DNA of 64,000 bases from Methanolobus sp. WCC4. Lineage in GTDB: Archaea; Halobacteriota; Methanosarcinia; Methanosarcinales; Methanosarcinaceae. The stretch's first letter is position 1. The number at the start of each line of letters is the position of its first letter. The position numbers were made by a program, and so were the translations under genes. Below the pieces are notes generated by a model, which saw only the letters and a list, made by a program, of their open reading frames with translations, was not told the DNA's origin and did not search any database. Positions 12,812-15,190 of this stretch are shown in pieces. The stretch covers positions 124,001-188,000 of the forward strand of contig NZ_CP150629.1 of NCBI RefSeq assembly GCF_038022665.1, read 5' to 3'.

Positions 12812-13063
12812 TTATAGTATGCTACTCAGTGCTTCCAGATTCACGTCAGGACCACTGAACAGTTCCTTATGAGTTAAAAACTCATCGCCGATCTGGAGTA
12901 CAGGGGCAGTCATGGTGAAAACACCATTGAATTTGAGTTCGGTCAAAGCTTCAGGAGTAGACATATCTGCAGTTTCAAAAGAAACTCCCTTTGAACCAAG
13001 TACCTTCTTGAGTTGCTCGCACTTCGGGCAAGTCTGTGTTGTATATATTACCACTTCAACCAT
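12812..13063 (-). CDS. Glutaredoxin-like redoxin (NrdH-type) of the class III RNR operon
   Basis: 83-aa thioredoxin-fold protein with active site TCPKCEQ (C12, C15) and a TAPVLQIGDEFL cis-proline segment. It is the first gene of the operon, 20 bp before nrdD. In Methanosarcina barkeri a glutaredoxin-like protein, reduced by a ferredoxin-dependent disulfide reductase, supplies electrons to the class III reductase. The same role is inferred here from position and motif. The CPKC motif differs from classical glutaredoxin CPYC. Confidence 0.9.
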   Translation of the reverse strand: MVEVVIYTTQTCPKCEQLKKVLGSKGVSFETADMSTPEALTELKFNGVFTMTAPVLQIGDEFLTHKELFSGPDVNLEALSSIL

Positions 13064-13714
13064 TCTCTCGCGTCCCTATATTCTATATATTAATTATTTT
13101 ATAGTAAGTGCCTTCCTAAGAGGAACAACAATGCCAAATTGAAAAACACATTCAATAGGCATTGTAGTGGTGATGACCTCTGTTTCCAGAAGGTAAATTA
13201 TACAAATGCCATATTGCTTAATAATGGTTTTTCAGACTTCATTTGAATATACATCAGACCATACGACATCAGTTCTATAACCAAATATGATAATATATTG
13301 TTATCAATTATGATATAATACATGATAGACTACATGGTGCTCAAAATCATACCCCAAGATCTACCCCGTCCAGAGACCCATCACCATACCATCGAACAGA
13401 AGTTTCTGCCAACCTGCCAGACAGTGTCGCAGGACATAAGTTGAGAAAATTGCGGCCCTATAGAAAAACTCTACCTTAGTATAGACCACAGATGCACGCA
13501 GATACACACAGATGCGAATAACCCTTATCTGCGTGACCAGCTGAACGAAAGTTCAGCAGGCATCCAACTCCGAAGGAGGTGGATGTATCTGTGTTTATCT
13601 GCAGGTATACTTGAAAACTCATTAACAATTAGAATCTCTACAGAGCCGAAATTGCCAAAATATCTATATCATTAACCACACTATACCAGATAACCCGACC
13701 AAGAGGTGTAAAAG
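13064..13714. other. 650-bp non-coding region between the RNR operon and radB
   Basis: No credible coding frame was found. The left end (13075-13105) is A/T rich with TATA-like runs that fit the RNR operon promoter on the minus strand. The middle (13140-13480) shows nothing recognisable. 13484-13602 is a structured inverted-repeat element. 13659-13669 (AATATCTATAT) is a TATA-like box toward radB, and GAGGTG (13703-13708) is its ribosome site. Confidence 0.6.
13484..13602. repeat. Inverted-repeat element with two internal hairpins (MITE-like)
   Basis: The outer arms GCAGATACACACAGAT (13498-13513) and ATCTGTGTTTATCTGC (13587-13602) pair with one mismatch. The left flank is built of repeated CACAGAT-like units. 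Inside are GCTGAAC-GAAA-GTTCAGC (13540-13557, perfect 7-bp stem, GAAA tetraloop) and CATCCAACTCC-GAA-GGAGGTGGATG (13561-13585, one mismatch). CACAGAT-type repeats are, from memory, common between genes in Methanosarcinales and other genomes. This copy looks like a small non-autonomous or RNA-forming element. Confidence 0.6.
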
Positions 13715-14383
13715 ATAACTGAACAACTAAGCTCCGGCTGCAAGCCCATTGATGACCTCCTTGGAGGAGGATTCGAAGCAGGAGTCGTCACCCAGATATT
13801 CGGAGAACCCGGGAGTGGTAAGACAAATCTGTCCCTTCAGCTTGCAGTGGAATGTGTCAAAAAAGGAAAGAAAGTGATCTATATTGACACGGAGGCCATT
13901 TCCCCTGCAAGATTCAAACAGATAGCAGGAGAGAATGCAAAGGAGATAGCACAGCACATAATTATCTTTGAGCCTCACAACTTCGAGGAGCAGTACGCTG
14001 CCGTGAAAGAGATAGAGAAACTCATCTCTGATAAGATAGGGTTGATAGTAGTTGATTCTGCAACAGCATTCTACCGGTTCGAGCTCGATCATGAAGAATC
14101 AAGTATGAGAACCAGAAGAGAACTCTCGAATCAGATAGGTTTCATACACGCCATCGCCCGCAAACACAGGATAGTGGCAGTAATAACCAACCAGATCTAC
14201 ACCGACATCGCAACAGGGAATGCAAGACCCATAGGTGGCAGCGGGATAGAGCACATATCCAAAACCATCATCCAGCTCGAAAAGACAGGTGATGGCAAAA
14301 GACGTGCAAAACTCTGGAAACACCGTTCACTTCCCGAAGGCGGGACATGCGAGTTCAGCATCACCAATGAAGGTGTCAGGTAA
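13715..14383 (+). CDS. radB: DNA repair and recombination protein RadB (AUA start)
   Basis: Archaeal RadA paralogue, a RecA-fold ATPase of homologous recombination. 222 aa when begun at ATA 13715. The N-terminus reads TEQLSSGCKPIDDLLGGG, as expected for RadB, then Walker A GEPGSGKTN (about 30-38) and Walker B-like LIVVDSATAFYR. No ATG, GTG or TTG lies in frame between the upstream TAA (13709) and GTG 13847, and starting at 13847 would delete Walker A. GAGGTG lies 6 nt before the ATA, and a TATA box at 13659-13669 fits a start just downstream. A sequencing error (ATG read as ATA) is the alternative. Confidence 0.85.
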   Translation: MTEQLSSGCKPIDDLLGGGFEAGVVTQIFGEPGSGKTNLSLQLAVECVKKGKKVIYIDTEAISPARFKQIAGENAKEIAQHIIIFEPHNFEEQYAAVKEIEKLISDKIGLIVVDSATAFYRFELDHEESSMRTRRELSNQIGFIHAIARKHRIVAVITNQIYTDIATGNARPIGGSGIEHISKTIIQLEKTGDGKRRAKLWKHRSLPEGGTCEFSITNEGVR

Positions 14384-14410: not shown

Positions 14411-14442
14411 GAAAAAAAGAGAGTATTTTCGGGCTCAGGCCC
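14411..14442 (-). terminator. Short hairpin and T-tract at the trmI stop
   Basis: On the minus strand GGGC-CTGA-GCCC places the TGA stop in the loop. TTTTTTT follows about 15 nt later. The stem is only 4 bp. Confidence 0.45.
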
Positions 14443-15190
14443 TTGCAATCGTGATAAAACCGGTATGACCTACTTTTGTTGTCGACGGGCGTGTACCCCT
14501 CGCAGAGAATGATATCTCACGTTCCGTGCATTCTATAGTCACCACATCATAGAAGCCCTCGGCCTCCATTGCATCACGTATCTCCTTTGTCTGCTCGAAG
14601 AAAGGAGAATATGTTGCAAGGAATCCTCCAGGATGCAGTACCTTCCTGACATTGGGGATAACATCCTTCGTGTTCTGAGTGTCAAGGGTGATCACATCGA
14701 ACTTCTCATCAGTGATATTGTTTATTTCCTCGACGATGTCACCACAGCGAAGTTCCACGTTGTCAAGACCGGCATTTTCCACATTCTTACGTGCGACCTT
14801 CACAAAGTCCTCTTTTACCTCATAGGTGACGACCCTCTTTGCAATGGAACCAAGATACATCGTCAGAATTCCCGAACCAGTACCTGCATCGAGGACAACA
14901 TCGTTCTTGCTGAGACCGGTGTAGGCGATTATCATGCCTATGTCCTTGGGCATCATGGGAGCGCCGGTCCTCTTCGCGTGCCTGAAGAAGTCAGGCATCT
15001 TGGGACGCTGTATAGTGAATTCCTGACCTTTATGAGCCACTACAGTATCACCGGGAACCTTATCAGCAAGGGTTGAGAGCTCAACTATACCAAAATCCGT
15101 GTGCAGTTGCTCATCGGATACTTTCACAATGAACTCCCTGACCTTACCCCTGTGGGAGGTCTTCAGCAAAACCAATTCACCAGTTATCAT
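14435..15190 (-). CDS. trmI: tRNA (adenine-N1)-methyltransferase TrmI
   Basis: SAM-dependent methylation of adenine 57/58 in the tRNA T-loop. 251 aa. An N-terminal beta domain (about 1-70: VLLKTSHRGKVREFIV) is followed by a class I Rossmann fold with motif I VLDAGTGSGILTMYLG (about 100-115) and GAPMMPKDIGMII just before it, both typical of TrmI. The ATG overlaps the upstream HD-protein stop as TAATG, so the two genes are co-transcribed and probably translationally coupled. Confidence 0.93.
   Translation of the reverse strand: MITGELVLLKTSHRGKVREFIVKVSDEQLHTDFGIVELSTLADKVPGDTVVAHKGQEFTIQRPKMPDFFRHAKRTGAPMMPKDIGMIIAYTGLSKNDVVLDAGTGSGILTMYLGSIAKRVVTYEVKEDFVKVARKNVENAGLDNVELRCGDIVEEINNITDEKFDVITLDTQNTKDVIPNVRKVLHPGGFLATYSPFFEQTKEIRDAMEAEGFYDVVTIECTEREISFSARGTRPSTTKVGHTGFITIARA

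Follow-up and report, generated by a model that had tools for sequence, protein, structure and literature searches.

The window, a stretch of 64,000 nucleotides from Methanolobus sp. WCC4, belongs to a genome assembled as a single contig (2.85 Mb, 99.99% complete) with the named relatives M. profundi, M. bombayensis, M. vulcani and M. psychrotolerans. Its DNA-repair gene radB is solitary, flanked by a glutaredoxin-like gene (12812-13063, minus strand) and a tRNA-methyltransferase-like gene (14435-15190, minus strand). As read from the sequence, the radB frame is open on the plus strand from 13712 to 14383, where its stop codon ends. Upstream it is shut by an in-frame TAA (13709-13711), followed by AAG (13712-13714) and ATA (13715-13717). 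The first-pass annotation had placed the start of radB at this ATA, and direct reading bears out its premises: no ATG, GTG or TTG occurs in the frame between the preceding stop and GTG 13847, and GAGGTG lies 6 nt upstream of the ATA. Where it had claimed a TATA box, an AT-rich, TATA-like stretch is present (Table 1). Methanolobus relatives possess a comparable AT-rich stretch about 50 nt upstream. The 5' end of the transcript probably lies near 13690, which would give a leader of about 25 nt.

A dispersed intergenic repeat (13447-13653) ends just before the TATA-like stretch. The genome contains about 20 other copies of it, complete or partial, with 68-95% identity.

Table 1. Features of the radB locus (window positions) and of three other genes with Ile-codon starts (genome positions, and locus positions where given)
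Feature	Position	Strand	Basis or remark
TATA-box-like AT-rich stretch, probable radB promoter	about 13658..13669	+	sequence
Shine-Dalgarno (SD) motif GAGGTG	13703..13708	+	sequence; conserved in family
GTG-TAA, in-frame GTG inside SD followed at once by stop	13706..13711	+	unusable as start
ATA, inferred radB start codon	13715..13717	+	6 nt behind GAGGTG; family conservation
radB coding sequence from AUA, 222 aa and stop	13715..14383	+	TIGR02237, PF08423, PDB 2cvf
Walker A GEPGSGKTN	13802..13828	+	translation
GTG, first in-frame canonical start, rejected	13847..13849	+	past Walker A
hps-type gene	ORF at genome 895784; SD and Ile-codon start L244:7829 (genome 895829)	+	NF005442
PhoU/AbrB-like gene	genome 656848; SD and Ile-codon start L232:8857 (genome 656857)	+	PF01895 and PF04014
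cbiG-like gene	genome 263617; SD and Ile-codon start L212:16162 (genome 264162)	-	PF11760

Judged by its sequence, the protein started at AUA is RadB. It scores 253.2 bits with the RadB model TIGR02237 (cut-off 172.4) and is also matched by PF08423. Against a solved RadB structure (PDB 2cvf) residues 5-221 align to 2-216, so that residue 5 corresponds to residue 2 of 2cvf and the N-terminus of the latter lies within three residues of the AUA; the N-terminus thus fits RadB, as had been proposed, in the same protein family and with a matching N-terminal limit. Walker A starts at codon 30 counted from AUA, within the distance of about 30 residues from the N-terminus expected of RadB. The RadA-type N-terminal domain is absent, RadA and RAD51 models matching only from their position 76-81 on. 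GTG 13847 is rejected as a start because it lies downstream of Walker A; the resulting 178-aa ORF would be devoid of this motif. The GTG inside the SD motif cannot be the radB start in this genome because TAA follows directly. The window genome combines a conserved N-terminus with the lack of an available canonical start, a combination also characteristic of infC-like cases.

The radB start codon in Methanosarcinaceae and related families

Each species of Methanosarcinaceae was represented by one genome, 112 in all from 14 genera; a protein search recovered radB in 109 of them, of which 108 were readable through the start. The start places were located from tblastn frames, and genus names other than those of named loci are presumptive. 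The start column reads ATA in 102 of the 108 genomes and ATC in the remaining six, which are the six genomes of genus g6. ATG, GTG, TTG and ATT are found at this column in none of the 108. Comparison with close relatives, which the first-pass annotation had suggested as a check of the codon, therefore yields an Ile codon throughout. In 100 genomes the ATA stands exactly at the column; two Methanohalophilus-like genomes (L115, L116) are slipped by one codon, with an ATA ATA pair just before it. All 108 genomes carry an SD motif upstream of the Ile codon (GAGGTG in 96, GGGGTG in nine, variants in three), at a distance of 5, 6 or 7 nt, counted as 9 nt for the two slipped genomes. As in infC, one codon class is kept together with an SD motif over many species. 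On the aligned sequences, this recurrence is far beyond chance, because both the Ile codon and the SD motif are present in 108 of 108 family genomes.

We consider a sequencing error, a recent mutation or a decaying gene scarcely conceivable here: the column holds ATA or ATC throughout the family, the frame is intact and conserved, and nothing in support of an error was found in the one-contig, 99.99% complete genome. The proposed AUA start therefore stands, and its portrayal as a rare oddity of one gene does not, as the feature is family-wide and extends to other genes.

Unlike radB of Methanosarcinaceae, the sampled outgroup radB genes mostly start at ATG. In family f6, probably Methanotrichaceae-like, ATG occurs at -2, -1 or 0 of the start column in all 19 sampled genomes. 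A nearby ATG is present in two of four genomes of f2 and in five of seven of f4; the comparison covers the outgroup families apart from f3 and the single f7 member. In f5, which is probably Methanoperedenaceae-like, the aligned place reads ATA, ATT, ATC or, in L141, ATG; four genomes (L134, L136, L138, L139) lack a canonical start nearby, and others possess a GTG three codons upstream. In the RadB tree Methanosarcinaceae (f1) and f5 each form one clade, and the Ile-codon start may have arisen once or several times in these two families, the tree being compatible with either. In two f2 genomes (L154, L155) the stretch ahead of the radB core offers only a GTG inside AGGTGAT and, after it, ATT codons; this may be a further Ile-codon start.

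Conservation of the start column and of its surroundings

On the radB tree the start column shows a single change among Ile codons, compared with 11-27 changes at the 12 other columns with an Ile share of 85% or more. Over all codons it shows three changes, the joint lowest of 222 columns (median 25). The three bases of the start codon carry 2.00, 2.00 and 1.69 bits of information, compared with 0.09 and 0.03 bits at the third positions of the preceding and the following codon, respectively. Bases aligned with the SD motif reach 2 bits, and those between motif and codon are variable.

Were translation to enter from a canonical start further upstream, on a longer transcript, by frameshifting or by way of a leader peptide, the AUA would be an internal Ile codon. 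In Methanosarcina-like genomes the frame does extend some distance upstream without a stop, in some of them with an in-frame ATG or TTG 13-21 codons upstream, and other starts may be used in single species. An in-frame upstream start, which the first-pass annotation had named as grounds for refutation, fails as a general explanation: 57 of 108 genomes have no in-frame ATG, GTG or TTG upstream, and 44 of 108 have none from the preceding stop to the Walker A region. The frame is shut just upstream in many genomes, with an in-frame stop within three codons in 26 of 108; in L113 TAA is the codon immediately before ATA. The single-base differences in SD spacing (5, 6 or 7 nt) likewise speak against a shared upstream reading frame, and the codon is kept as ATA and not as a mixture of Ile codons. 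We therefore regard an upstream start as highly improbable.

The GTG within the SD motif could itself be the start, with readthrough of the TAA, or GTG-TAA could act as a start-stop that hands ribosomes to the AUA by reinitiation. In the window genome the GTG and the TAA share the frame of the ATA; in the family, the GTG lies in frame three codons upstream in 26 genomes, and in 28 a sense codon comes after the in-frame GTG. However, in 52 of 105 genomes it does not share the radB frame, in 34 a stop follows it directly, it belongs to an SD motif that is conserved as GAGGTG, and ATA is kept whether the GTG is in frame or not. Initiation at the GTG is accordingly very unlikely, and the radB start site lies very probably at the AUA, as far as the compared genomes can tell.

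Ile codons at the start of other genes

A dicodon-score screen of 864 kb of the window genome, in which coding signal reaching upstream of the first ATG, GTG or TTG was sought, picked radB and several other genes, three of which were followed in up to 30 genomes (Table 1). In about 27 of 30 genomes, orthologues of the hps-type gene display GGTGAT-N3 followed by ATA, ATC or ATT; about three have ATG. The PhoU/AbrB-like gene has ATA in 21 and ATC in two of 27 orthologues; the same column holds ATG in two genomes of g6 and in one of f6. An in-frame ATG two codons upstream is present in two of the genomes with ATA (L290, L292). The cbiG-like gene carries GGAGGTC-N6-ATACGGAGT at its start; the codon is ATA in each of the 26 family genomes that lie outside g6, and g6 has an ATG nearby.

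The stretch GGAGGTC-N6-ATACGGAGT of the cbiG-like gene (L212:16150-16180, minus strand; orthologues L309-L334) is conserved at base level beyond the needs of the protein, and it may be an RNA element.

Conservation of a start alone leaves its cause unsaid, and ATA could be kept for a reason other than initiation: as part of an RNA or DNA signal, as the conserved bases around the cbiG-like ATA would allow, or as a target of A-to-I editing by which AUA is read as AUG. In radB, however, only SD motif and codon are conserved while the bases between them vary, and no stable RNA fold is present at the start (z = 0.84). Editing would mend neither the ATC of radB in g6 nor the mixture of ATA, ATC and ATT in the hps-type gene. 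We give such explanations very little credence compared with initiation at the Ile codon.

Across 286 ortholog pairs shared by the window genome and a second Methanolobus species, of which 400 kb were compared, two clear cases of Ile-codon starts were detected, radB and the cbiG-like gene, together with a possible one, an ABC ATPase, and a false one, an acetyltransferase. The ABC ATPase candidate g191 (genome 366592, ATA) has an in-frame ATG 11 codons upstream, and the screen candidate g704 (genome 499292) was discarded on account of its own upstream ATG in the window genome. As a rough figure, Ile-codon starts would concern about 1% of genes, or some tens genome-wide. Further candidates with ATT, ATC or ATA behind an SD motif are located in the window genome at 844860 (plus strand), 666792 (minus), 393964 (minus), 550392 (plus, cysK-like) and 709929 (plus).

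Screen matches near genome positions 590431, 604957 and 611668 do not look like start oddities; by eye they resemble genes with an in-frame TAG, probably methylamine methyltransferases, in which such a codon is expected for pyrrolysine. In a leuA/aksA-like gene near 489881 (plus strand) the ATG start and the rest of the gene lie in different frames that meet at a T run, which looks like a frameshift, either real or an assembly error.

Proposed initiation at AUA and comparison with known systems

In the mechanism we propose, the 30S subunit would be placed by pairing with the GAGGTG motif, and Met-tRNAi, presumably the tRNA used, would be accepted at AUA (AUC in g6) in the P site despite a mismatch at the third position. 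The resulting RadB would have 222 aa and carry Met at its N-terminus. As aIF1 counteracts non-canonical starts in archaea (PMC6237735), initiation of this kind is expected to be weak and to respond to the stringency of initiation. A duplication of aIF1 as the cause was not seen, the gene being single-copy in 27 of 27 genomes examined, which gave no sign of special machinery. An AUG might either overproduce RadB or release its synthesis from start-codon stringency control by aIF1; the likeliest reason for its avoidance may be that RadB is kept scarce or is coupled to the translation state. AUG is a single transition away from AUA; its absence in 108 species, to which it has never returned, together with the change to AUC in g6, suggests selection against AUG at radB, a harm that we infer from this absence.

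Translation of Methanosarcinaceae radB from a non-AUG start by SD-anchored Met-tRNAi, kept by selection, is on the whole likely. Taken separately, selection as the reason for which AUA is conserved has about even chances. Only tentatively do we extend this to a defined set of genes (radB, the hps-type, PhoU-like and cbiG-like genes, and perhaps some tens of others) held on Ile-codon starts by selection, with start-codon stringency as a regulatory input. If true, this would be an archaeal counterpart of the AUU control of infC, acting on several genes at once. RadB would offer a clean test case for weak starts in archaea, genetics being possible in the family (Methanosarcina).

AUA, AUC and AUU starts are usually regarded as curiosities. 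The bacterial and archaeal code table permits ATA as a start, and common gene finding takes only ATG, GTG and TTG. The N-termini of some conserved genes of the family are thus likely mis-called; radB of the window would lose Walker A.

RadB of Haloferax is described as a recombination mediator (PMC5480776). Belinky et al. 2017 report prokaryotic switches between AUG and other starts, including rare ones to AUU and CUG, with one AUG-to-AUU switch among 61,358 AUG starts; AUA is absent from their main text, which, unlike radB here, describes no long-retained Ile-codon start (PMC5622118). Ribo-seq of Methanosarcina mazei, of the same family, revealed N-termini that had been misannotated as well as small ORFs with starts other than ATG; its unannotated small ORFs start at ATG, TTG, GTG or CTG, and the main text mentions neither ATA starts nor RadB (PMC11456600). 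A literature search among openly licensed papers yielded none that deals with archaeal AUA starts.

The classic conserved AUU start is that of bacterial infC, which encodes IF3 and for which autoregulation by IF3 has been shown; to our knowledge, Archaea lack IF3. Like infC, radB possesses an Ile-codon start with an SD motif that has long been retained in place of AUG. Unlike infC, it encodes a recombination protein, its codon is AUA, it belongs to the Archaea, and its regulation through the start codon is a proposal drawn from the conservation described here.
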